From contig JANYLQ010000050.1 of NCBI GenBank assembly GCA_025363755.1, forward strand, positions 196,351 to 260,350: a stretch of DNA of 64,000 nucleotides, read 5' to 3'. Under the pieces are notes generated by a model. The model was not told the DNA's origin and searched no databases. It saw only the letters and a program-made list of their open reading frames with translations. The DNA is from Hyphomicrobiales bacterium (GTDB taxonomy: Bacteria > Pseudomonadota > Alphaproteobacteria > Rhizobiales > Aestuariivirgaceae). Both the position numbers and the translations under genes were made by a program. Position 1 is the first letter of the stretch; every line of letters starts with the position of its first letter. Positions 7,686 through 19,150 of this stretch are shown here, piece by piece.

Positions 7686-8974
7686 TGTGCCACTACCACA
7701 ATTGGTTTTTCAGAAAAATAGCGTTTTAAAACCGTAGGATCGTTCAAGTTCACAGTCCGAATCACATCAGGAAGACTGGCGATCTCAGCGACACTCCAAT
7801 GACCTGTCCTGTAGTCCCTCAGCATGCCAGCAAAATTCTCGTGATTGCGCGATAACACGTTGAGCGACTGCAGTTGTTCCACGCGCGCATTTTCAACTTC
7901 TTCAGCATTTGGCCCTTCATTGCGGAATTTATCCCATGATTTTGCAATCAGAGCCAAGGTTCCGCTTACATTGACCGTGCTGATCCGCCCGCGAATACTG
8001 TTTACGGTCAGTGCCTCGTAAAAATTTATGGAGGGCTGCAAACCATAGGTGGCCGCCGTTCCTTCACGAATATCTTTGAACAACCGAGATTTCTGATCGC
8101 CCGAAAATATGCTGCTCAACATATAGCCCGCAATCCAGTCTCTTAAAGCAATATCGCGTGGAAAAACTGAACCAACCACAAGTGAGGCCTGGCCGCTTTT
8201 ATCACCGCTCAAAAAAATCGGACCAGCAGGCGGCGTTTCAAATTGCGCAACGGGAACAGGTTTCAGTTCTGAATTCTGAGGTAACCCGTCCAGCAGCTTA
8301 TCAACCAAACTGCCAGCGTGGGCCTGGTCAACATTGCCAACCACACTGACGATCACATCTTTTAAATTCAAATGGGACTTCAACCATGGCTTTAAGTCTC
8401 CAGGCTTAACTGCAATAATGTTTTCAGGCTTTGGCGCAAAATAGTTCAAATAGGGGTGGGCCCCAATCGCGTTCTCAAAAAATGCTTTTTGAATTGCGGC
8501 CTCTGGATAGATTGATGATTCCTCTGACCGGCGTGCCATTGTATCGCGTTTCCGCATAAATCGGCTTTCGGGCAAATCTGGATGTCTTAAAATCGAATTG
8601 ATCAATTCCACGGCGCCATCAATACCTCGGGTTGGCGCCGACACAGCTCCATAGGTTTGGTCAGGCGTGGCATCAATTGAGAAATTTGCCCCCACATCCT
8701 GCAAAGATTCATAAAGCTCTGAGGATGATTTCCCGTCTGCACCTTCATACAACATGGAAAGTGCAAGTGGTCCAGTGGCCGTGCCATTTGCGCCATCGCA
8801 TGCCGTGCCGCAATCAAAAGCCAGAGCAATCGCAACCGTATCTTGCGTATCCGAATTAAAATAAATGACGGGGATGCCGTGAGGCGTTTTAAATTCAATA
8901 AGGGGAATATTGCCAGCAGCTGCCGCAAAAGCTGTTGCCCACAACGTGAAGAGAATAAAGAACGTTCTCATCAT
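7682..8974 (-). CDS. Secreted M16-family peptidase homologue, zinc motif missing
   Basis: A 430-residue protein with a signal peptide (about 1-20, MMRTFFILFTLWATAFAAAA) and two M16 domains. At the place of the zinc motif HxxEH it reads GTATGPLALSMLYEG, so it cannot bind the catalytic zinc. In bacterial M16B systems such inactive chains pair with an active one to form a heterodimer, and the non-catalytic member often supplies substrate-binding residues. The active partner is the gene just upstream, overlapping by four bases (8971-8974). The location is probably the periplasm. The pairing is inferred from gene order and family precedent. Confidence 0.88.
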   Translation of the reverse strand: MMRTFFILFTLWATAFAAAAGNIPLIEFKTPHGIPVIYFNSDTQDTVAIALAFDCGTACDGANGTATGPLALSMLYEGADGKSSSELYESLQDVGANFSIDATPDQTYGAVSAPTRGIDGAVELINSILRHPDLPESRFMRKRDTMARRSEESSIYPEAAIQKAFFENAIGAHPYLNYFAPKPENIIAVKPGDLKPWLKSHLNLKDVIVSVVGNVDQAHAGSLVDKLLDGLPQNSELKPVPVAQFETPPAGPIFLSGDKSGQASLVVGSVFPRDIALRDWIAGYMLSSIFSGDQKSRLFKDIREGTAATYGLQPSINFYEALTVNSIRGRISTVNVSGTLALIAKSWDKFRNEGPNAEEVENARVEQLQSLNVLSRNHENFAGMLRDYRTGHWSVAEIASLPDVIRTVNLNDPTVLKRYFSEKPIVVVAQ

Positions 8975-10326
8975 TGGGTAACCGCAGGTAATAATATCGC
9001 AACACCAACCCGCCCCGGATTTTGCAGAACAACCATTAAATTATTAACGTCACTCCGCTGCAATGCATGAAGTTCATCTAAATATGAACTCGCCTTCTGC
9101 AATCCGAAATCGACTATGTCCTGCCCCAAGCTTTGCACCCGCGAATCCGCATTCTCCCATTCGTTGAACAAAAAATTGCGCTTCTTGAGGCGTTCAAAAC
9201 TTTTGAGTGAAAGTCCATGCGTTGCAAAATCGCCAAGATAGCTCTCGACAATTTTGGTCATTTGTTCAGGTGTCACTTGCGGTTGCAATGAAGCTGAAAA
9301 CCTGATCTGCCAAACACCTTCATAAATCCGCGCAACACTTATATTCCAGTCCTGCACGAGGCCGGCATCATCAGCAATTTTATCGCGCAAACCTTCGGCC
9401 AATCGGCTGCGCATCGCATCTTGCAAAACTGATGAAGCCGCAACAGCGCGCCATGGCGTGGGTGCGGAAACAATTTTGGCCCATATAAATTTGCGCACGC
9501 GAACCCGGTCAGATGTTCTAGTGCGCCGAAATGAATTGGCCCCAAAAGATTTAATTGGTTCTGTTGGCAAGAGTGCAGGCAACGCCATGAGAAGTTTGTC
9601 TTCATGCTTCACCCGCATTTCTCGATTTACCAACATTTCTCCAAATACGGCATTTGGAAAAATCATGTTGATTGCTTTGCGGTTCTCGGGATTCAAATAG
9701 GGTCCTGCGACCTGTAAAAAAAATGGCGAGCCTTGATAATGCGCTGCGTCAAAAGCCAGAACATCTTTCAGCGTCACTAAAGCAACATCTTCAACGTGGC
9801 CCCCCGGATATTTTTCAAAGGGCAATCCCTTGTTCAGTTCGGAGTTAAAATCAATCATGAAACGCGTGTCGGGATCGCTTTCGGTGCGCTCCAGAAGTTC
9901 TTGGGTCACAACACTTTTCTCAGTCTTTACATCTGCCTCGGTGATGGCCAGCGGCGTTGTAATGCGGGCTAATCCTTTTAACGCTTCAATGAAACCCGCC
10001 GGCGGTACATTCAGATCATATCGTGTGTAAGTATAATTTGTGGCTGCATTTGAGTTTGAGCCAGGAATCGAATCAAAAGATGCAAAGCCCTTGCCATCAC
10101 TATTTTTAAATTTCAAATGTTCCAACACATGTGCAATTCCGGGAATGGAGTCCGATGTGGAACCAAAAGGCACCCACAAGGACAGCGAATAAGTGGTGCT
10201 ATTTTCAATCGCAATGTCGAACACCTGTGTCTTTGGTATGCCATCAATGGCAAAAGCAAACGGTGCCAATGCTCCCCATGCAACTCCGATAATTAAAATA
10301 AGGTGTTTTTTCACGCAGGCTTTCAA
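8971..10326 (-). CDS. Secreted M16-family zinc metallopeptidase (active subunit)
   Basis: A 451-residue protein with a signal peptide (about 1-27, ending APFAFA). The inverted zinc motif HVLEH gives His66, Glu69 and His70; Glu143 in EKSVVTQELLER is the likely third ligand. The typical NAATNYTYTRYDL segment (93-105) follows. These enzymes degrade or process small peptides. It heads a coupled operon with the inactive homologue and a 14-TM exporter. It starts 84 bases after the end of the GFA gene, and an 11-base perfect inverted repeat sits in that gap. Compared with cytoplasmic PqqF or mitochondrial MPP it is secreted, so maturation of imported or exported peptides is possible but unproven. 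Confidence 0.9.
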   Translation of the reverse strand: MKACVKKHLILIIGVAWGALAPFAFAIDGIPKTQVFDIAIENSTTYSLSLWVPFGSTSDSIPGIAHVLEHLKFKNSDGKGFASFDSIPGSNSNAATNYTYTRYDLNVPPAGFIEALKGLARITTPLAITEADVKTEKSVVTQELLERTESDPDTRFMIDFNSELNKGLPFEKYPGGHVEDVALVTLKDVLAFDAAHYQGSPFFLQVAGPYLNPENRKAINMIFPNAVFGEMLVNREMRVKHEDKLLMALPALLPTEPIKSFGANSFRRTRTSDRVRVRKFIWAKIVSAPTPWRAVAASSVLQDAMRSRLAEGLRDKIADDAGLVQDWNISVARIYEGVWQIRFSASLQPQVTPEQMTKIVESYLGDFATHGLSLKSFERLKKRNFLFNEWENADSRVQSLGQDIVDFGLQKASSYLDELHALQRSDVNNLMVVLQNPGRVGVAILLPAVTQ

Positions 10327-10373: not shown

Positions 10374-10412
10374 TGACAAATGCGCCCTGTGGGCAAAGTA
10401 ACGCATTTGTCA
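10374..10412. promoter_or_regulatory. 11-bp perfect inverted repeat (operator or terminator)
   Basis: TGACAAATGCG (10374-10384) and CGCATTTGTCA (10402-10412) flank a 17-base centre that itself contains GCCC/GGGC. The right arm includes the GFA stop codon, and the left arm ends 48 bases before the M16 start. There is no T run on the minus strand, so an operator or attenuating hairpin for the M16 operon is as likely as a terminator. Confidence 0.5.
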
Positions 10413-10793
10413 CCATTGCGGCTTTTTAAAGCCTCCACCAGTAATTTCATAGTAATCTCCGGCATTATCACAGAAAATATGGCCTTCAAGTTTTAGTCCA
10501 GATTTCCCGTCTATCCCGCCCACACAAATCGATGTGGTGTCTGAGCCATTTTGTTTCCAAAATAAATTCGATCCGCATTCTTTGCAAAACCCCCGCTTTG
10601 CGACTGCGCTGGATGCAAACCACTTCAAGCCATCTTGTTTCGTCAGTTTTAAATCACTGTCTGCTACTCCGCTCGAAATCCAATAGCTGCCCGTCTGCTT
10701 GCGGCATTGCGTGCAATGGCAAGCCAACGCATCTTTCATCGGCCCAGTGATTTCATAAGCAACAGAACCACATAAACATGATCCCGTTTTCAT
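10410..10793 (-). CDS. GFA/CENP-V family zinc protein
   Basis: A 127-residue protein with the zinc-binding pattern of the GFA (glutathione-dependent formaldehyde-activating) family. It has SCLCGSVAYEITG at the N-terminus, then CHCTQCRKQTGSYW (about 25-38), then FCKECGSNLFW (about 69-79). The family was named after an enzyme proposed to form S-hydroxymethylglutathione, although many members probably do other things. Its start overlaps the stop of the homocysteine methyltransferase gene by four bases (10790-10793). A link to one-carbon metabolism fits that context, since demethylation can release formaldehyde, but this is inference. Confidence 0.85.
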   Translation of the reverse strand: MKTGSCLCGSVAYEITGPMKDALACHCTQCRKQTGSYWISSGVADSDLKLTKQDGLKWFASSAVAKRGFCKECGSNLFWKQNGSDTTSICVGGIDGKSGLKLEGHIFCDNAGDYYEITGGGFKKPQW

Positions 10794-11701
10794 CTCATTT
10801 CCTGTGCCAATAATGAAATATGTTCAGGCCCAATGCCGCAACATCCACCAAAGGCTGATACGCCGAGTTTGCGCCAATCGCGTGATTTTGAAACCAGATC
10901 ATCAGGCGTAATCACATCCACAAAATGCCAGTTTGGCGCTTTATAAAACCCGCATTCGGGATAAGTGCCCATTGGCCCAGACCAAGATTTACGCAAAATC
11001 GCGAGAGCCTCATCAGTATCATTCGGCGAAGTATGCATAATACTCATCACTTTTGGATTGAGCGCAGCTAGGGCAGGGGCAAACTCTTCCAACATTTGAT
11101 CAGGTCGCCCAAAGCCGACTAATTTGCCATCGGCATTGCGTTCAACTGAAATCCCAATCCAAACAGGAAGTCCCGTCTTAATCGCTTCCTCGGTAGCCCA
11201 AAGCGAATAGTCAGAATCACGCATCATTTCCATCATGATGAGGTCAACACCGCACGCCTTCAAATTTTCGACCTTGCGCTTGAATAATGCGCGCGCTTGC
11301 GCCTCAGTCCAATCCGTTGATAAGTCCGTGCGGTCTGAACCCGCCACCACCGGCCGCATTGTCGAAACCGAACCCGCCACCGCCACCTTGTGTCCAACCG
11401 CCGCCGCTTTTGCCTCGCGCACCGCGGCCTCATCAACCAAAATCAAATCATCATCACGCTTGTAAAAATTAAAACTCAATGCCGACGATGCAAAAGTATT
11501 AGCCGTAATCATATCCGCTCCAACGCGGATGTATTCATCATGAACCTCGCGCACGATATGCGGATGCGTAAGATTGGCATCAGCGCACCAAACAGCGCCA
11601 CTCATTGGCGCACCACGGCGCTGAATATCTGTGCCCGTGCCACCATCCATTATAATGGTCTCGCCCCGTGCCAACTTGTCTTCGATAAATTGATAACTCA
11701 C
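10790..11701 (-). CDS. Homocysteine S-methyltransferase family protein
   Basis: A 303-residue single-domain TIM barrel of the MmuM/BHMT/MetH-N type. It opens with MDGGTGTDIQRRG (18-30) and has the zinc cysteines in GGCCGIGPEHI (Cys287, Cys288). Family members move a methyl group from a donor (S-methylmethionine, betaine or methylfolate) to homocysteine to give methionine. At the position of the usual first zinc ligand, normally in a GxNC motif, it reads IMHTSP, so His223 replaces cysteine. It is the third gene of a coupled operon with an MttB-type methyltransferase and a QueG-like protein; both junctions are four-base overlaps. It could accept methyl groups released by the MttB protein. The donor is unknown. 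Confidence 0.88.
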   Translation of the reverse strand: MSYQFIEDKLARGETIIMDGGTGTDIQRRGAPMSGAVWCADANLTHPHIVREVHDEYIRVGADMITANTFASSALSFNFYKRDDDLILVDEAAVREAKAAAVGHKVAVAGSVSTMRPVVAGSDRTDLSTDWTEAQARALFKRKVENLKACGVDLIMMEMMRDSDYSLWATEEAIKTGLPVWIGISVERNADGKLVGFGRPDQMLEEFAPALAALNPKVMSIMHTSPNDTDEALAILRKSWSGPMGTYPECGFYKAPNWHFVDVITPDDLVSKSRDWRKLGVSAFGGCCGIGPEHISLLAQEMR

Positions 11702-12327
11702 TTCATTCTCGCTTTTGCAAATGCCTGCATATGAAACTGTGCCTGCGGCTTAGCATATTGATATTGAACAGCGATAGGGCAGGCACGGCGGGCCAAGCAC
11801 CCGCCCTCCATGCATTCATTGGCACCGGCATTCACATGAGCGCCACAAGTCTCAACATCATAATTTTTCCCGTCAAATGCTGAAACAGGGCAGGCGCTTA
11901 AGCACGGTTTTGCGACACAAGTTTCGCACGGGTGAGCCCCCACCGAAACACGCGGCAAATCAAACTCCACCGGAAATAAAAGTGCTGCCCGGTAAGCATG
12001 CCAAAGCCCATATGTTGGATGGATATTCAAACCCAGCGGTGAAACATGCCCAGCCCCACCGCGTCTGGCCCAAGATAAAAACGGCTGATGCGGCACATCA
12101 AACGGAAACAAAGCGCGGGCATCCAAATCCGCCGCCAGTGGCTCTATAACAGCACGAGTCCAATCATCTAAGGAACCTCGCCCTTCACGCGCAAACCGCC
12201 GAAACATATCTGGCCCAGCATTGCCGATGAGAATCACAAACCTCGTGTCGCCCATTTCGCGCGTCGAGAACCAACCAAGCGGCGTAAAACTTTCGCGGCG
12301 AATGCGGTTGAGAATAGGGTGCTCCAC
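11698..12327 (-). CDS. QueG-like two-cluster iron-sulfur protein
   Basis: A 209-residue protein. The C-terminal part has eight cysteines able to hold two [4Fe-4S] clusters: Cys134, 137, 142 and 146 (CETCVAKPCLSACP) and Cys161, 172, 177 and 183 (ECMEGGCLARRACP). The N-terminal 120 residues, with GHVSPLGLNIHPTYGLWHAY (94-113), recall the cobalamin-binding half of QueG/CblC-type proteins (GxxGxxxLxIxPxxG). That resemblance is weak and by eye only. It starts with GTG overlapping the MttB stop codon (TAGTG) and ends overlapping the homocysteine methyltransferase start. By position it could reduce or carry the corrinoid needed by its neighbours. Fe-S binding is likely; the corrinoid link is a hypothesis. 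Confidence 0.75.
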   Translation of the reverse strand: MEHPILNRIRRESFTPLGWFSTREMGDTRFVILIGNAGPDMFRRFAREGRGSLDDWTRAVIEPLAADLDARALFPFDVPHQPFLSWARRGGAGHVSPLGLNIHPTYGLWHAYRAALLFPVEFDLPRVSVGAHPCETCVAKPCLSACPVSAFDGKNYDVETCGAHVNAGANECMEGGCLARRACPIAVQYQYAKPQAQFHMQAFAKARMK

Positions 12328-13907
12328 TATTTCGACCAGCGCGGATCACCCAACTCCATCACTTCACGCGGCAACCGAATATCATGCTTGGCGCGAATGA
12401 TCTCGTCCACATCACGCGGGATATATTCTGGATAATAAGTCGACAAAATCATCTTCTTTTTCGCAATCGCCTTTTGCAAAATATCAGGCTTGCCCGCCTC
12501 GTTCCATTCCTTAGGGCTCATGCGGTTGCCTAAAAGCGGATAAACATATTCCGTCTGCATCATACTCAATGTCTGGTCCGACCCCAGGTAATGCCCTGGC
12601 CCCTCCAAACAAACATCGGTAATCACATCAAGTGACAGTGTTTCATCAGTCACTTCAATGCCACGCACATTGCGGTTGATAGAACCCAACATGTCATTAT
12701 CGATGAGCAGGCTTTCCAAACAAAAGCCCAATAGCGAAGCATGCATGCCCGCCATTTCATACATCAGGTTCACACCAGCCATTGCTGAAATGCCAGCTGT
12801 CACACCTTTTTCATAGCCCGCCTGCACATCAGGAAACTTGGCATCGCACATGCCCGAAGCCGAGCCCACAGTGAGGTTATAAAAATGCCCCATCTGCCCG
12901 CATGCCGCTGTGATGAGTGCCTGCTCGCCAGAGCCCCCAGACATAGCACCCGTTCGCAAATCAGAAACGAATGGCCATGGCCCCCAGATCGCTATAGCGC
13001 CCGGCACCACGCAGTTAATGTAAACCAATCCGGCCAAACATTCGGCCACAGCCTGCACAACTGTCCCTGCCAGTGCCGCAGGCGAAGTCGCCCCCGCTTG
13101 AGCCGCTGAAAGCAACAACACCGGCATGCCGCCCCGCGCTGCCACTTCAAGACACCGGCAAGCATCTTCAGCAAATTTCAAAGGCGGAACCACAAAGCAA
13201 TTTGATTGCGAAACAAATGGCCGCTCGCGCCACTTCTTTTCACCACCCGCCACATAATGCAGAATTTGCAAACACTCATCCACATGTTGCGGCTCCACCA
13301 TACTTGTGCCCACATGCTTGTTGGTGCCCGCAAGCGAGGCATAGAGAGTGTTGATATCCAGATCATGCCCGTTCAGCATGTCCCGTGCTGTCAAGCAGCG
13401 CTGAAAAAAGTGAATATGCTCACACGTGTCAACAATCCGCGCCGCGTCATAAAGATCAGCCAGATAAGACTCGCGGTAAGAGTTGGTTTCAATCTCGGCC
13501 ACATGCACAGCAGCCCCCGCCGTTCCAAAATAAACTTTGTTGCCCGATGGCTCCATGTCATGCTGCGGGTCACGCGCACACAAAACAAAATTTCGCGCAC
13601 AGCTGCCCAAAATATCTTCCACCAAAGAGCGCGGGATACACAAGCGCCCGCGATCATTCAAAAACCCGCCCCGCGCGGTGACGGCCTCAACACAAGATGG
13701 AATGGGCGTGCCCAAGCCCACAGTCTCCAACAGCTTCAAAGCCGTCTCATGAATGCGCTGCATATCGCCGTCTTTCAGCGGCTTATATTGCCCGCCCGTC
13801 ATCCCCGGCCGCACCGCAGCCTCCGACATGGGAACGACGCGTGAACGCAGCGCCTTACGAGCCTCGCGTCCACCGCGCCGTTTTGAAAGATCATCAATTA
13901 AAGTCAT
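12327..13907 (-). CDS. MttB-superfamily methyltransferase (non-pyrrolysine), paralogue 1
   Basis: A 526-residue protein of the trimethylamine methyltransferase (MttB) superfamily. It has the fold signature SDLRTGAMSGGSGEQALI (about 315-332) and the C-terminal LEGPGHYLGSDQTL. Characterised members demethylate quaternary amines such as glycine betaine, carnitine or proline betaine and pass the methyl group to a corrinoid protein. The frame is uninterrupted, so it contains no pyrrolysine. It is first in a four-gene operon, coupled to the QueG-like protein by a one-base overlap. No MttC-type corrinoid protein lies nearby, which is unusual. The substrate is not known. It differs clearly from the paralogue at 15816, so the two probably have different substrates. 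Confidence 0.9.
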   Translation of the reverse strand: MTLIDDLSKRRGGREARKALRSRVVPMSEAAVRPGMTGGQYKPLKDGDMQRIHETALKLLETVGLGTPIPSCVEAVTARGGFLNDRGRLCIPRSLVEDILGSCARNFVLCARDPQHDMEPSGNKVYFGTAGAAVHVAEIETNSYRESYLADLYDAARIVDTCEHIHFFQRCLTARDMLNGHDLDINTLYASLAGTNKHVGTSMVEPQHVDECLQILHYVAGGEKKWRERPFVSQSNCFVVPPLKFAEDACRCLEVAARGGMPVLLLSAAQAGATSPAALAGTVVQAVAECLAGLVYINCVVPGAIAIWGPWPFVSDLRTGAMSGGSGEQALITAACGQMGHFYNLTVGSASGMCDAKFPDVQAGYEKGVTAGISAMAGVNLMYEMAGMHASLLGFCLESLLIDNDMLGSINRNVRGIEVTDETLSLDVITDVCLEGPGHYLGSDQTLSMMQTEYVYPLLGNRMSPKEWNEAGKPDILQKAIAKKKMILSTYYPEYIPRDVDEIIRAKHDIRLPREVMELGDPRWSK

Positions 13908-14073: not shown

Positions 14074-14463
14074 TCACCGCAAAAGCCTAATCTTCAATCC
14101 AAGACCATCAGCAAAAGCCGCCCAAGGTCGATCCGCAGTCAACACTTCGGCTTGCTTTTGCTGTGCCAGCGCGAAACAGGCGCGGTCGCCGAGTGACAAA
14201 CCTGCCTTCTTTGTGATCGACGCCAATTTTCCTGTTGCTACCGCTTGCTCAAAATCATGCGCATAGACTTCAACACCAGTTTCAGTAAAAAATGCATCAA
14301 TCGCGGCGGTCGGAAAATTATTGACGGCAGCGTAAGTATAAACCTCAGCCACATTCACCGCACTCACAATTGAGTCCTCTATATGTTGAAACACCTCGTC
14401 ACCTCCGGGTTCCCCCAAGATGGCGGCGAGGATAACCGAGGCATCAAGAACCAATGTGCTCAA
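14074..14463 (-). CDS. vapC: PIN-domain ribonuclease toxin (VapC family)
   Basis: A 129-residue PIN domain spanning the whole protein. The acidic residues expected for metal binding are present: Asp7 in LVLDAS, Glu in NVAEVYT, and the aspartates in LSLGDRACFALA and LTADRPW. VapC toxins cut tRNA or rRNA when freed from their antitoxin. Its start overlaps the antitoxin gene by four bases (14460-14463), the normal VapBC arrangement. The pair lies between two divergent MttB operons and is not obviously related to them, so it was probably inserted there. Confidence 0.9.
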   Translation of the reverse strand: MSTLVLDASVILAAILGEPGGDEVFQHIEDSIVSAVNVAEVYTYAAVNNFPTAAIDAFFTETGVEVYAHDFEQAVATGKLASITKKAGLSLGDRACFALAQQKQAEVLTADRPWAAFADGLGLKIRLLR

Positions 14464-14741
14464 CGCTTTTTGCTCTTAAACTCAGTCTGCCTCTCATCTG
14501 CGCGCCAATCCAGAAAGTCAGCAACACTTGCCTTCTTGGTGAGGCCGGATGTTTTTGCCAAACTGCGTATACGTTCTTTCACTTCATTCATGGTGGTAAT
14601 GCGAATAGAACCATCCACAATATCAATGCGAACTGGCCCGCCCTTATCAAGCCCCACGCGCCGCCGCAGCTCCGCAGGCAAACTCAGCCTGCCTGATTCC
14701 GTCACGCGACCAGACAGAATAGATTTCGTTTCCAGTTCCAT
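14460..14741 (-). CDS. vapB: AbrB/SpoVT-type antitoxin (VapB family)
   Basis: A 93-residue protein with an N-terminal SpoVT/AbrB DNA-binding fold (about 9-50: GRVTESGRLSLPAELRRRVG and IDIVDGSIRI). A basic C-terminal tail (FLDWRADERQTEFKSKKR) probably wraps the toxin. It lies directly upstream of and overlaps the PIN-domain gene. Such antitoxins bind inverted repeats in their own promoter, and a perfect 10-base inverted repeat is found 18 bases upstream of the start. The function is well supported by domain and context. Confidence 0.88.
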   Translation of the reverse strand: MELETKSILSGRVTESGRLSLPAELRRRVGLDKGGPVRIDIVDGSIRITTMNEVKERIRSLAKTSGLTKKASVADFLDWRADERQTEFKSKKR

Positions 14742-14907: not shown

Positions 14908-15819
14908 TTGGCCAGACGAGACCTGCCACCCCTTCGCGCTTTAACCGCTTTTGAAGCTGCCGCCCGCCTCGGTTCCTTCCGTATGGCGGCGGGTGAATTG
15001 GGCATAACCCGCTCGGCCGTCAGCCATCAAATCAAACTGCTGGAAGATAGGCTGGACATCCAACTCTTCCGCCGTGACGCGCGTAAAGCCGAGTTGACCC
15101 AACTCGGCCAAACTTATTATCCCACAGTCCGCGATGCCTTCGACCAAATCGAAGCCCAAACCAAAGCACTCCGCCCATCAAACACCGACAATGAACTCAC
15201 TATTCAGGTTTATGTCACAGTGGCGCTTAAATGGCTGATCCCGCGCCTGCATGATTTCGAACGCAAATATCCCGATGTAAAAGTGCGTCTCTCTACATCA
15301 TATTTCGATTGGGATTTTGACGAGCGCAATGTCGATGTTGGTCTCATCCTCGCCCGCAATAAATTGCCCGGTCATTACTATCGGCCATTGTTCAAATCCT
15401 ATCTCTCGCCGGTTTGTGCGCCTTCGATAAAGTTAAAATCCATGGACGACATCAAAAAGCACAAGCTGATCGATGTTTATACGGCCGAGGAAGATTGGCA
15501 AATCTGGCTGGAGGCAGCAGGCGTAAAAGCCGTGAAGCCCGCCAATCGCCTGTCGGTTGATTCATACATTCTCGCCCAAGAAGCAGCAATAGAGGGCAGA
15601 GGCCTTGCCATGACCATTGGCCCTTTTGCTTCCGAAGAAATAAAATTAGGCCGCTTGCAACAGCCTTTCCCTTTGCGCGTGCCCCATAAACATAATTGGT
15701 ATTTTGCCTGCAGTGGCGAAAACAAAAATAAAAATAAAATAAAACGGTTTGAGGATTGGTTGGTCAAACAAGTTGCTGCTGATCCCGCACTCGAGGTATT
15801 CAAGGACGATAAGAAATGA
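14908..15819 (+). CDS. LysR-type transcriptional regulator, GcvA-like
   Basis: A 303-residue LysR regulator. The winged helix-turn-helix (about 8-67) includes FEAAARLGSFRMAAGELGIT and SAVSHQIKLLEDRL. A type 2 periplasmic-binding effector domain (about 95-295) follows. It starts with TTG; no in-frame ATG fits the family N-terminus better. Its stop codon overlaps the start of the MttB gene (ATGA), so it is the first gene of the operon with MttB, psuK and psuG and probably controls that operon and possibly the divergent MttB operon. The effector is unknown. Confidence 0.9.
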   Translation: MARRDLPPLRALTAFEAAARLGSFRMAAGELGITRSAVSHQIKLLEDRLDIQLFRRDARKAELTQLGQTYYPTVRDAFDQIEAQTKALRPSNTDNELTIQVYVTVALKWLIPRLHDFERKYPDVKVRLSTSYFDWDFDERNVDVGLILARNKLPGHYYRPLFKSYLSPVCAPSIKLKSMDDIKKHKLIDVYTAEEDWQIWLEAAGVKAVKPANRLSVDSYILAQEAAIEGRGLAMTIGPFASEEIKLGRLQQPFPLRVPHKHNWYFACSGENKNKNKIKRFEDWLVKQVAADPALEVFKDDKK

Positions 15820-17384
15820 CGGAAGAACAAACTAGCTCAATCGAAACCCGCCGTGGTCGCCGTGGCGGTGCACGCGCCAATCCAGGTGCGGGTGGTGGCG
15901 CAGTGATCCCCCAACTTTCGCGTCGCCAAATCAAACGCAAATTCCCGCCAACAAATATTCTATCTGCCGATGAAATAGAATCGATCCATCAATCATCACT
16001 CGAAGTACTGAACGAAATCGGCATGGATTTTCTCTATCCTGAGGCCCTCGAACTTCTGCGCAAAACAGGTGGCGTAAAAATCGAGGGTGAACGCGTGCGC
16101 TTCGAATCCGCCTTCATTGAAGAATACTTGACCTATGCCCCATCCGAATTCACGCTCCACGCCCGCAATCCTGAAAATAGCACCCGCATCGGCGGTGATA
16201 ACATGGTGTTCGGTACAGTGGGCAGCCCGCCGAGCTGTTATGATATGGACGGGGGAAGACGCACCGGAAACCAAGTCGACTACCGTAAATTTCTGAAACT
16301 CGGCCAACATTTCAACGCCATTGGTTTCAGTGCGGGCTATCCGGTTGAACCCGTAGACATCCACGCAGGAATTCGTCACTTGGATGCTTTGCGCGATATG
16401 GCAACGCTCATGGATAAGCCAATGACGGCCTATTGCTTAGGCTCCCACCGTGTCCGTGATGCGCTCGAAATCGCCCGCATCGCGCGCGGCATCAGCCAAG
16501 AACAATTCGAAGCAGAACCCACACTCACCACAATCATCAATACCAACTCACCCTTGAAGCTTGATGCCTACATGTTGAATGGCATCATGGAAATGTCTTC
16601 GCGCGGCCAGTCTGTTTGCATAACACCTTTCACGCTAGCCGGGGCTATGGCTCCGGTCACGATGGCAGGCGCACTTGTCGAACAAAACGCCGAAGCTATG
16701 GCTGGACTTGCGTTTACCCAACTCGTCAAAAAAGGCGCACCCGTCATCTATGGCGGCTTCACATCGAATGTAGATATGAAATCAGGCGCTCCCGCCTTCG
16801 GCACACCGGAATATATGAAGGCGGTCATGGTCGGCGGCCAATTGGCTAGGCGTTATAAATTGCCCTACCGCACGTCCAATACCTGTGCTGCCAACACCAT
16901 GGACGCGCAAGCGGCTTACGAAAGCGTGTTTAGTCTCTGGGCTTTGACGATGGGCGGCGGTAACTTCATCATGCATGGTGCCGGCTGGCTTGAAGGCGGA
17001 TTGGTCGCCGGATTTGAAAAATTCATCATGGATGTCGACTTGATTCAAATGATCATGGAGTTTCTGCAACCCCTTGAAACGACTCAAGATGCGCTCGGCG
17101 TTGAAGCAATACGTGAAGTCGGCCCCGGCGGACATTTCTTTGGCGCACAACACACGCTTGCCAGATACAGCAACGCCTTCTACCAACCCATCATCTCGGA
17201 TTGGCGCAACAACCAACAATGGGCGGCCGCTGGCAAACCCGAAGCCATGCAACGCGCCAACCACGTTTACAAACAAGCGCTCGATGAATACCAACAACCC
17301 AATATGGACCTTGCCATTCTTGACGAGCTGAATGAATTTGTCGACCGCCGCAAAGCCGAGGGCGGCGTGAAAACAGATTTTTAA
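15816..17384 (+). CDS. MttB-superfamily methyltransferase (non-pyrrolysine), paralogue 2
   Basis: A 522-residue MttB-superfamily protein with a basic, Gly/Arg-rich N-terminal extension (about 10-30, TRRGRRGGARANPGAGGG). The core signature is VDMKSGAPAFGTPEYM (319-334), and the C-terminus has VGPGGHFFGAQHTL. There is no in-frame amber codon, hence no pyrrolysine. It is coupled upstream to a LysR regulator by a four-base overlap and followed one base later by the PfkB kinase. Relatives transfer methyl groups from quaternary amines to a corrinoid protein, but none is encoded here. Being in one transcript with pseudouridine catabolism genes is unexpected; the substrate is open. Confidence 0.9.
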   Translation: MTEEQTSSIETRRGRRGGARANPGAGGGAVIPQLSRRQIKRKFPPTNILSADEIESIHQSSLEVLNEIGMDFLYPEALELLRKTGGVKIEGERVRFESAFIEEYLTYAPSEFTLHARNPENSTRIGGDNMVFGTVGSPPSCYDMDGGRRTGNQVDYRKFLKLGQHFNAIGFSAGYPVEPVDIHAGIRHLDALRDMATLMDKPMTAYCLGSHRVRDALEIARIARGISQEQFEAEPTLTTIINTNSPLKLDAYMLNGIMEMSSRGQSVCITPFTLAGAMAPVTMAGALVEQNAEAMAGLAFTQLVKKGAPVIYGGFTSNVDMKSGAPAFGTPEYMKAVMVGGQLARRYKLPYRTSNTCAANTMDAQAAYESVFSLWALTMGGGNFIMHGAGWLEGGLVAGFEKFIMDVDLIQMIMEFLQPLETTQDALGVEAIREVGPGGHFFGAQHTLARYSNAFYQPIISDWRNNQQWAAAGKPEAMQRANHVYKQALDEYQQPNMDLAILDELNEFVDRRKAEGGVKTDF

Positions 17385-17385
17385 A

Positions 17386-18246
17386 ATGAGCGGAGTGCTC
17401 GTGATCGGTGGCGCAAATGTGGATGTGAAAGCCAAAACCAGTGCTGCCCATATCCCGCGCACGTCCAATCCGGGCTTGGTGTCGATCAAAGCAGGCGGAG
17501 TGGGCCGAAACATCGCCCATAATTTGGCAAGGCTTGGCGCTGATGTAAGTTTGCTCAGCGTAATTGGCATGGATGCTTTCGGCGACATGCTGATCAGCGA
17601 AACCAAGAAGGCGGGCGTCAACACCGATGCAATCATCCGCGCAAACCAAACCACAGGATCATACATTGCGGTGCTTGACGAAAAGGGGGAATTGATAACG
17701 GCAGTCTCAGACATGGGCCTTCTTTCCTTGTTAACTTCAGAAACAATAGTAAAGAATAAAGACCTAATTATGGCAAATAAACATATAATTTCTGATTGCA
17801 ATCTACCTGACGAAACACTCGACGAAATCGCCAGATATGCCGCAGATCGATTGATCATTGAGCCCGTATCCGTCGCAAAATCACAAAAACTCCGCAATCT
17901 ATTGGCCAAGCACAAAATCTATTTGGCCACCCCAAATCTCGATCAAATCGAATCCCTAGTCGGAACCCGTGATATTCCAAGCGCGATAAAGGCCCTCCAT
18001 ACATTGGGCCTGCAAAACATCGTCATCCACGCCGGAGAGCAGGGTGCTTACGTGTCCGATAGCAATGAAGTCACCCACATTCCAAGCCAAGCCAAAATCG
18101 TTGTCGATGTCACAGGTGCCGGTGATGCCGCAACAGCAGGCCTGATTTCTGGCCTCATCAAAAATCTCCCCCTCGCAAAAGCCGCGGAGATCGGGCAAAT
18201 CATGGCAGCCAAAGTAATCGCCAGCCATTCATCAACGTCAGACTGA
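17386..18246 (+). CDS. psuK: PfkB-family kinase, probable pseudouridine kinase
   Basis: A 286-residue ribokinase-like protein. The N-terminus is VIGGANVDVKAK, followed by the substrate-binding GGVGRNIAHNLARLG (37-51). The ATP and catalytic motif is DVTGAGDAA, with the likely base Asp247. PsuK phosphorylates pseudouridine to pseudouridine 5'-phosphate. The specificity is inferred from the psuG gene that starts one base after its stop codon; the kinase alone could act on another nucleoside or sugar. It is one base downstream of the MttB gene, so it belongs to the same transcript. It is somewhat shorter than many PfkB kinases. Confidence 0.85.
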   Translation: MSGVLVIGGANVDVKAKTSAAHIPRTSNPGLVSIKAGGVGRNIAHNLARLGADVSLLSVIGMDAFGDMLISETKKAGVNTDAIIRANQTTGSYIAVLDEKGELITAVSDMGLLSLLTSETIVKNKDLIMANKHIISDCNLPDETLDEIARYAADRLIIEPVSVAKSQKLRNLLAKHKIYLATPNLDQIESLVGTRDIPSAIKALHTLGLQNIVIHAGEQGAYVSDSNEVTHIPSQAKIVVDVTGAGDAATAGLISGLIKNLPLAKAAEIGQIMAAKVIASHSSTSD

Positions 18247-18247
18247 A

Positions 18248-19150
18248 ATGATCATACTCACCGAAGAACTCAAATCTGCGCTCGCCCAAAACAAACCAAT
18301 AGTGGCCCTTGAATCCACCATCATCGCCCACGGCATGCCATTCCCTCAAAATCTGGAAATGGCGCAGGAAGTTGAACAAATCATTCGAGGTAACGGTGCA
18401 ATCCCAGCGACCATAGCAGTCATAGACGGCGAACTCCGCGCTGGCCTCTCAACCGCCGAACTTGAACATTTCGCTAAAACTGGCATCTCAATCATCAAAG
18501 TCTCAACCCGTGATCTCCCTTTCGTCGTCGCCCGCAAAATCACCGGTGCCACCACAGTTGCTTCTACAATGCGATTGGCAGCCATGGCGGGAATTCATAC
18601 TTTCGCGACAGGCGGAATCGGCGGCGCTCACCGCGGTGCAGAAAAGAATTTCGACATCTCAGCCGACCTCATTGAATTTTCGCAAAGTAATGTCGCGGTC
18701 GTCACAGCAGGTGCCAAAGCCATCCTCGATTTAGCGCTCACCCTTGAAACCCTCGAAACGTTCGGTGTTCCAGTCGTTGGCTATGGCACTGACGACTTCC
18801 CCGCTTTCTATTCACGCAGCAGCAGCCACAAAGTTCCAATGCGCTGCGACACGCCAAATGAAATCGCAGCAATGATGAAAGCCAAATGGGCAATGGATTT
18901 AAAAGGCGGAATTGTTGTGGCCAATCCAATTCCAAGTGAAGCCGAAATCCCAGCTACCGAAATCGCCCCAAGAATAGAAGCGGCTATCACAGAAGCCAAA
19001 GCTCAAAACATCATCGGCAAAAACGTAACGCCATTCCTGCTCAAGCGCTTGGCTGAAATAACTCAAGGCCGATCACTCGCAGCAAATATCGCGCTCGTCA
19101 AAAATAATGCCAAACTTGCGGCAGAAATTGCTGTCGCTTACAGCCAATAG
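18248..19150 (+). CDS. psuG: Pseudouridine-5'-phosphate glycosidase
   Basis: A 300-residue protein of the usual length for PsuG/YeiN. Conserved segments include ALESTIIAHGMPFPQNLEMA near the N-terminus, then FATGGIGGAHRG and VVTAGAKAILDL. The enzyme splits pseudouridine 5'-phosphate into uracil and ribose 5-phosphate, breaking the C-C glycosidic bond with a Mn-type metal. With the kinase upstream it makes the complete two-step pseudouridine degradation route. No nucleoside transporter is adjacent, so the substrate may come from internal RNA turnover. The 3' end overlaps the convergent TauE gene by 13 bases. Confidence 0.95.
   Translation: MIILTEELKSALAQNKPIVALESTIIAHGMPFPQNLEMAQEVEQIIRGNGAIPATIAVIDGELRAGLSTAELEHFAKTGISIIKVSTRDLPFVVARKITGATTVASTMRLAAMAGIHTFATGGIGGAHRGAEKNFDISADLIEFSQSNVAVVTAGAKAILDLALTLETLETFGVPVVGYGTDDFPAFYSRSSSHKVPMRCDTPNEIAAMMKAKWAMDLKGGIVVANPIPSEAEIPATEIAPRIEAAITEAKAQNIIGKNVTPFLLKRLAEITQGRSLAANIALVKNNAKLAAEIAVAYSQ

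Follow-up and report, generated by a model that had tools for sequence, protein, structure and literature searches.

A methyltransferase operon with a QueG/CblC-like iron-sulfur protein is probably an accessory module of the MtgC corrinoid system in a Hyphomicrobiales bacterium

How could a methyl group travel from an MttB-type methyltransferase to a homocysteine S-methyltransferase when their operon encodes no corrinoid protein to carry it? This question is raised by a four-gene operon in a 64,000-nucleotide stretch of a Hyphomicrobiales genome (contig JANYLQ010000050.1, positions 196,351 to 260,350), hereafter the window, to which coordinates refer unless another locus is named; the genome measures 3.23 Mb and has a completeness score of 100%. 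The four open reading frames (ORFs), all on the minus strand, encode, in order, MttB4 (12327..13907; 526 amino acids), a divergent MTTB-superfamily methyltransferase without pyrrolysine (Pfam MTTB PF06253, 349.8 bits); an iron-sulfur (Fe-S) protein (11698..12327; 209 amino acids) with a predicted QueG/MMACHC/reductive-dehalogenase-type fold and a ferredoxin-like part predicted to bind two [4Fe-4S] clusters; a homocysteine S-methyltransferase-like protein, HMT (10790..11701; 303 amino acids; PF02574, S-methyl_trans, 155.2 bits against a cut-off of 22); and a GFA-family protein (10410..10793; 127 amino acids; PF04828, 77.9 bits). The Pfam matches of MttB4, HMT and the GFA protein all exceeded the cut-off, and the ORF coordinates gave head-to-tail overlaps of 1, 4 and 4 bases, bearing out the original prediction, made from the sequence alone, that the four genes overlap by 1 or 4 bases. 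With a probability of roughly 60%, we consider this operon a module accessory to the aerobic MtgC corrinoid system, the split methionine synthase/glycine betaine demethylase, whose carrier is encoded elsewhere in the genome.

That a carrier exists was clear from the rest of the genome. The operon had been described as lacking both a corrinoid protein and a folate methyltransferase, which held for the operon itself but not for the genome: the proposed whole-genome check for an MtaC/MttC-type corrinoid protein revealed an MtgC-type one (positions 8969-9670 of locus L040, which spans C47:82000-101500) matching PF02310 with 97.2 bits and PF02607 with 58.8 bits. The same locus encodes an MtgE-like PF02574 protein, a DUF1638 protein, a RACo/RamA protein (PF14574) and an MtgD-like pterin-binding protein (PF00809), MtgD, MtgE, RamA and DUF1638 being named here by Pfam domain, and in many relatives MtgC is a neighbour of the operon. 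The absence of any corrinoid protein was therefore rejected. PF02310 occurred at three places in the genome and PF02607 at two; because the three PF02310 frames measured 248 (C47), 715 (C19) and 301 (C37) codons, none was of MetH size. Another B12-binding protein (C37:57034; L007 1006-1884), which we take to be a photosynthesis regulator of the AerR/PpaA type, was rejected as carrier, being 292 amino acids long with B12-binding matches barely above the cut-off. The genome carries four MTTB genes in all, and the product of the copy on C37 (L001) is 66% identical to the Sinorhizobium meliloti MttB whose gene adjoins MtgC. The same kind of set is described for Phaeobacter inhibens, which has a three-part MetH and for which RamA and DUF1638 have been named as MtgC reactivation factors, the latter without a proposed mechanism in the portions available of that paper (PMC5764234). 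In Ruegeria pomeroyi MtgC has a part in methionine synthesis as well as in betaine demethylation, several MTTB proteins probably deliver methyl groups to this one route, and MtgC genes occur widely among marine bacteria (PMC12478193).

We then asked how regularly the Fe-S gene and MtgC are found together. In 69 genomes of the family to which the bacterium belongs, 43 had both genes, 6 the Fe-S gene only, 12 MtgC only and 8 neither, and in the 43 the two genes shared a contig in 28 cases and lay no more than 12 kb apart in 23. Across 397 genomes of the order, the Fe-S gene was found in 107 (E<1e-20; 109 genomes had a match at E<=0.001) and MtgC in 127 (E<=1e-100, plus one partial gene in G266 at E 3.2e-49, weaker matches being excluded): 91 had both, 16 the Fe-S gene only, 36 MtgC only and 254 neither, an association with an odds ratio of 40 and a Fisher value of 1e-42 when kinship is ignored. 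Counted by genus (n=141), with genus labels and positions transcribed by hand, the corresponding numbers were 43, 5, 18 and 75 (odds ratio 36, 4e-16). The two genes lay on one contig in 52 of the 91 order genomes with both and within 15 kb in 43, and 22 of the 43 genera with both had them within 15 kb. The HMT variant, present in 29 of the 397 order genomes (E<=1e-50), was accompanied by MtgC in all 29 and, by hand count, by the Fe-S gene in 26; 40 of the 45 HMT-bearing family genomes likewise had an MtgC match. The original prediction had named constant co-occurrence with a dedicated corrinoid protein elsewhere as an outcome that would speak against it, and this was largely what we found.

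These counts bear directly on the idea that the Fe-S protein carries cobalamin like QueG and itself replaces the corrinoid protein, the methyl group passing from MttB4 through the Fe-S protein to HMT. Its predicted QueG/CblC-type fold, the position of its gene between two methyltransferase genes in an operon devoid of a corrinoid gene, and the 5 of 45 HMT-bearing family genomes without an MtgC match are what this idea would lead one to expect. Since MtgC is present in 43 of the 49 Fe-S family genomes and in all 29 HMT order genomes, often near the Fe-S gene, such a replacement is highly improbable; moreover, wherever a structure of this fold has been solved, the protein is a reductase or an enzyme of B12 processing (PMC4646009). 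The suggestion that the Fe-S protein replaces or reactivates the corrinoid was thus retained for its second half, as a proposal of servicing.

The gene order proved to be conserved, as a search for it in other genomes had been expected to decide. In the 69 family genomes the Fe-S gene was present in 49, MttB4 in 45 (E<=1e-150) and HMT in 45 (E<=1e-60); all three were present in 44 and adjacent in 41 of these. HMT was never found without the Fe-S gene and MttB4 only once (G021), the Fe-S gene and HMT occurred without MttB4 in one genome (G043), and the Fe-S gene stood alone in 4. The three-gene order is conserved far beyond chance. In 43 of 45 fetched loci the HMT and GFA genes shared 4 bases, and the distance between the Fe-S and HMT genes ranged from -26 to 33 and was -4 in 22 of 47 (some genomes enter these counts twice), whereas that between MttB4 and the Fe-S gene ranged from -8 to 763 in the 13 loci measured. 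Because the first two distances are tight and the last is loose, the Fe-S, HMT and GFA genes look like the core of the operon. At two loci (L088 and L091) this trio was preceded by a different MttB, which in L088 was of the S. meliloti type, and in G043, where a search of the genome found no MttB4, the genes ran consecutively as MtgC, Fe-S, HMT and GFA (L059/L081). The names of close relatives include Aestuariivirga, Hyphomicrobiales and Rhizobiales.

The Fe-S protein itself matched neither Pfam nor NCBIfam models at E 0.001, and its assignment came from conserved residues and predicted structure. An alignment of 32 relatives contained eight invariant cysteines (C134, C137, C142, C146, C161, C172, C177 and C183; 11779..11928, minus strand) and a conserved segment at residues 96-118 (11974..12042, minus strand) that resembles a segment of the Caenorhabditis elegans MMACHC-like protein. 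The AlphaFold2 model had a predicted local distance difference test score (pLDDT) of 93.2 and a predicted template modelling score of 0.88. When it was compared with the PDB by Foldseek, all 50 matches listed, of 134 at E<=10, were QueG, MMACHC/CblC or reductive dehalogenases; the same was true of the 50 listed, of 123, for a second AlphaFold2 model (pLDDT 83), the best E value being 6e-6. By sequence, the protein on its own matched an MMACHC-like protein and QueG best in the PDB (E 0.12 and 0.17, respectively), profile searches placed QueG first in two cases and fourth in one, always weakly, and hhalign aligned the profile of the relatives with QueG over 64 columns (probability 85%, E 5.9e-6); one alignment for the comparison with QueG was built from 12 of 20 loci. 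The MMACHC model PF16690 gave 13.5 bits against a cut-off of 27, with 20 of 22 members matching it weakly (best E 0.0042), and the QueG model TIGR00276 gave 12.3 bits against 200, with weak matches in 16 of 18 (best E 6e-4). TagF_N, matched by three members (best E 0.0028), was regarded as a chance match. That the protein is QueG itself was rejected on the TIGR00276 score, the separate QueG of this genome reaching 434.7 bits.

In QueG and the reductive dehalogenases cobalamin sits in a nitroreductase-type module beside two [4Fe-4S] clusters, and MMACHC/CblC binds it in a similar mode but has no ferredoxin domain (PMC4646009). The Fe-S protein resembles QueG in predicted fold and in its two-cluster ferredoxin part, and differs from it in being only 209 amino acids long, in having no HEAT domain and in scoring under the QueG cut-off; it resembles human and C. 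elegans MMACHC/CblC in predicted fold and in an HPxYG..A.R segment, and differs in its ferredoxin part and in scoring under the PF16690 cut-off. By predicted fold only, it would thus fall in the class of QueG and the reductive dehalogenases, with a nitroreductase-type module and two [4Fe-4S] clusters, and looks like a minimal member of that class, consisting of module and ferredoxin part without a HEAT domain. The earlier description of it as QueG-like and two-cluster is upheld by the eight invariant cysteines and the predicted fold. Given this QueG-like predicted fold, the Fe-S protein is a fair candidate for acting on a corrinoid.

Of its relatives, 80 were studied out of at least 544 in the genome scan, with the Fe-S gene located in their loci by tblastn. 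Among 104 MttB ORFs of 440-700 amino acids and free of internal stops in the fetched loci, the Fe-S gene adjoined 30 of 35 of the MttB4 type (26 of 30 distinct sequences, identical copies being merged), 9 of 10 of the S. meliloti type, none of 56 of the MttB3 type (0 of 47 distinct) and 1 of 3 of other types. The MttB4 and S. meliloti-type lineages, both of which adjoin the Fe-S gene, are only about 25% identical. S. meliloti (L182) and Paracoccus aminovorans (L183) both have MtgC directly next to an MttB gene and the Fe-S gene that follows it on the opposite strand; the S. meliloti Fe-S protein is annotated merely as 'ferredoxin'. In four loci of other proteobacteria (L118, L132, L139 and L141), relatives of the Fe-S gene had an MTTB gene and the gene of a GlxA-type regulator in their vicinity, and further neighbours there resembled sarcosine oxidase subunits by eye.

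Association with MttBs from two very different lineages is hard to reconcile with the view that the Fe-S protein is no partner of MtgC and is instead a B12-dependent reductase of some small molecule of the pathway. QueG and the reductive dehalogenases, which share the fold, do reduce substrates (PMC4646009), but at 209 amino acids, against about 370 for QueG chains, the protein leaves no room for the HEAT-repeat domain of QueG, and we regard this view as very unlikely. A general CblC-like chaperone or reductase of cobalamin, serving several B12 enzymes and placed in the operon through shared regulation only, deserves somewhat more weight. The structural match to MMACHC would agree with it, as would the 16 of 107 Fe-S order genomes without MtgC, the large number of relatives in the scan and a relative on a Methylibium plasmid (L184 4878-5536) that follows a run of cobalamin-synthesis genes and whose last part lies in a different reading frame. 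Against it, 254 of the 397 order genomes have neither the Fe-S gene nor MtgC, although the B12-binding MtgC query had a match of some kind in 384 of the 397; the Fe-S protein is therefore dispensable for B12 proteins generally. Together with the strong proximity of the Fe-S gene to MtgC and MttB, this makes a general chaperone an unlikely explanation.

MttB4 is far removed from the other MttB proteins compared. It scored 354.6 bits against the trimethylamine methyltransferase model TIGR02369 (cut-off 525), shares 23-26% identity with S. meliloti MttB and with the three further MTTB proteins encoded in this genome, and falls outside the lineage of that S. meliloti protein, whose gene adjoins MtgC (24-25% identity). 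It is homologous to Methanosarcina barkeri MttB (7xcl) over most of its length and keeps the equivalent of Tyr364, Y383, which is present in all 35 aligned sequences, window included; the role of Tyr364 is taken from PMC9842639. It differs in having methionine in place of pyrrolysine: in alignments to 7xcl and PYLIS_3 the pyrrolysine position corresponds to M353 (12849..12851, minus strand), whose codon is ATG and not TAG, and methionine occupies this position in all 35 sequences. The Rfam family PYLIS_3, a pyrrolysine insertion element, matched above the gathering score at 12752-12851 on the minus strand, in a gene without TAG there. Because the codon at the site is ATG, this match reflects coding homology, the family seeming to detect mttB coding sequence, and pyrrolysine in MttB4 was rejected.

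The partner at the other end of the path had been predicted to be a homocysteine S-methyltransferase, and HMT meets that description by its PF02574 score and its conserved residues. BHMT was its best solved relative (E 5e-19). D19 and E158 occupy the positions of BHMT D26 and E159, residues whose numbers and roles we assume, and C287-C288 align with the CC pair; all four are invariant in the 32 distinct sequences, window included. Because HMT keeps these residues, a methyl path to homocysteine, as originally put forward, is plausible; its supposed independence of a corrinoid protein is the part that largely failed. HMT might also work without a corrinoid and, in the manner of BHMT or MmuM, draw the methyl group directly from a methylated compound, a possibility that concerns this enzyme only and is compatible with the other explanations. 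Besides the kinship with BHMT and the five HMT-bearing family genomes without an MtgC match, it has a precedent in Bmt of P. inhibens, which in vitro makes methionine from betaine and dimethylsulfoniopropionate without cobalamin (PMC12366255). Against it, MtgC accompanies HMT in every one of the 29 order genomes, and the position of BHMT Y77, presumably a betaine contact, is occupied by alanine in HMT, so that we find direct methylation doubtful. The GFA protein scored 28.2 bits against the S-(hydroxymethyl)glutathione synthase model TIGR02820, under the cut-off of 234.55.

If the operon does assist the MtgC system in this way, MttB4 would methylate the Co(I) form of MtgC with a methyl group drawn from a methylated amine or betaine, and HMT would hand the methyl group of methyl-MtgC on to homocysteine or a different amino-acid thiol. 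The Fe-S protein would service the MtgC corrinoid beside RamA and DUF1638, most likely by delivering electrons to oxidised cobalamin, or else by handling the cofactor. The interactions, cobalamin binding, reactions and substrate in this scheme are putative, and we hold its single enzyme steps with less confidence than the module as a whole.

Several observations weigh against this assignment. In the window genome itself MtgC and the Fe-S gene are 117 kb apart. MtgC occurs without the Fe-S gene in 12 of the 69 family genomes, and 3 of the 29 HMT order genomes (G077, G144 and G384) lack the Fe-S gene. Conversely, no MtgC match (E 1e-60) was found in 6 of the 49 Fe-S family genomes (G005, G007, G011, G020, G042 and G047, with completeness of 66, 96, 74, 92, 78 and 82%, respectively), the last five of which are also the five HMT family genomes without MtgC; gaps in draft assemblies may explain these misses. 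The Fe-S family is wider than MtgC, as the 16 order genomes mentioned above attest: in all 7 loci from genomes lacking MtgC (L142-L148), and in 9 of 13 further ones (16 of 20 in all), no match to the MttB and Mtg queries was listed near the Fe-S gene, and many remote relatives adjoin housekeeping genes. The co-occurrence statistics were corrected for phylogeny solely through the count by genus. As to the Fe-S protein, its TM-scores were moderate, at most 0.59 (to MMACHC) among the matches listed, and its sequence matches to QueG and MMACHC in the PDB were weak (E 0.03-0.35). One profile search ranked QueG below two proteins of the ferredoxin type and a ribosomal protein; in two, QueG stood among ferredoxin-type proteins and MMACHC was not among the matches listed. 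Ferredoxin models of the NapG type matched 17 of 18 members and did better than the QueG model (best E 2e-5). Members of the PF02574 family have three zinc-binding cysteines, and the third was not found in alignments of HMT with BHMT and MtgE: BHMT C217 stands opposite a gap and the Asn-Cys of MtgE opposite D228-T229. The invariant H223, six residues away, is our guess for a stand-in. Finally, RamA is already present in the genome, and the Fe-S protein would therefore be an addition to it and not a substitute.

Upstream of MttB4 lies a second, divergent operon on the plus strand, next to the gene for a GcvA-like LysR regulator (14908..15819; GcvA model 282.1 bits, cut-off 288), a conserved neighbour that itself diverges from the MttB4 operon. 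It encodes MttB3, a second MTTB protein (15816..17384; PF06253, 651.2 bits), a PfkB kinase (17386..18246; best NCBIfam match pseudouridine kinase, 168.8 bits against a cut-off of 540) and an Indigoidine_A/PsuG-like protein (18248..19150; PF04227, 426.7 bits) of a family that we take to have pseudouridine glycosidase function. The order MttB3, PfkB kinase, PsuG-like gene (15816-19150) is kept in many relatives; the divergent LysR and MttB3 genes were present in 15 of 17 fetched neighbourhoods, the PfkB and PsuG genes in fewer. Between the MttB4 and LysR genes the window has a pair encoding a MazE/AbrB-type antitoxin and a PIN-domain protein (14074-14741, minus strand), and the two genes are separated by about 185 bases in a near relative (L043) but, as in the window, by about 1 kb in another locus (L045).

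The MtgC system as such is already known. MTTB, MtgC, MtgD, MtgE, RamA and DUF1638 proteins, known from MtgBCDE of R. pomeroyi (PMC12478193) and the three-part MetH of P. inhibens (PMC5764234), are all encoded in the window genome, to which the operon adds a far-diverged MttB, the Fe-S protein with its predicted QueG/CblC fold, a further PF02574 enzyme and the GFA protein. Our searches of the open-access PMC literature turned up no account of these added parts and no paper that casts the Fe-S protein in a role of servicing MtgC, and the terms iron-sulfur, Fe-S, ferredoxin and QueG are absent from the main text of PMC12478193. By analogy, its proposed task of bringing electrons to a corrinoid protein would resemble that of the RamA/RACo activases, and it belongs to another family than these, RACo/RamA being encoded in the same genome. 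We tentatively suggest, at somewhat less than even odds, that the Fe-S protein is a further cobalamin protein of the QueG/CblC fold, a stand-alone reductase or loader of MtgC distinct from RamA that keeps MtgC active in air in many proteobacteria, and that the PF02574 variant and MttB4 form a direct branch from methylated amines to methionine via MtgC. MtgC is needed in Ruegeria for methionine synthesis and betaine demethylation (PMC12478193). If our assignment is true, a widespread Fe-S protein that as yet has no name, and whose predicted fold is that of B12 reductases and human CblC, would be a missing part of the MtgC system.

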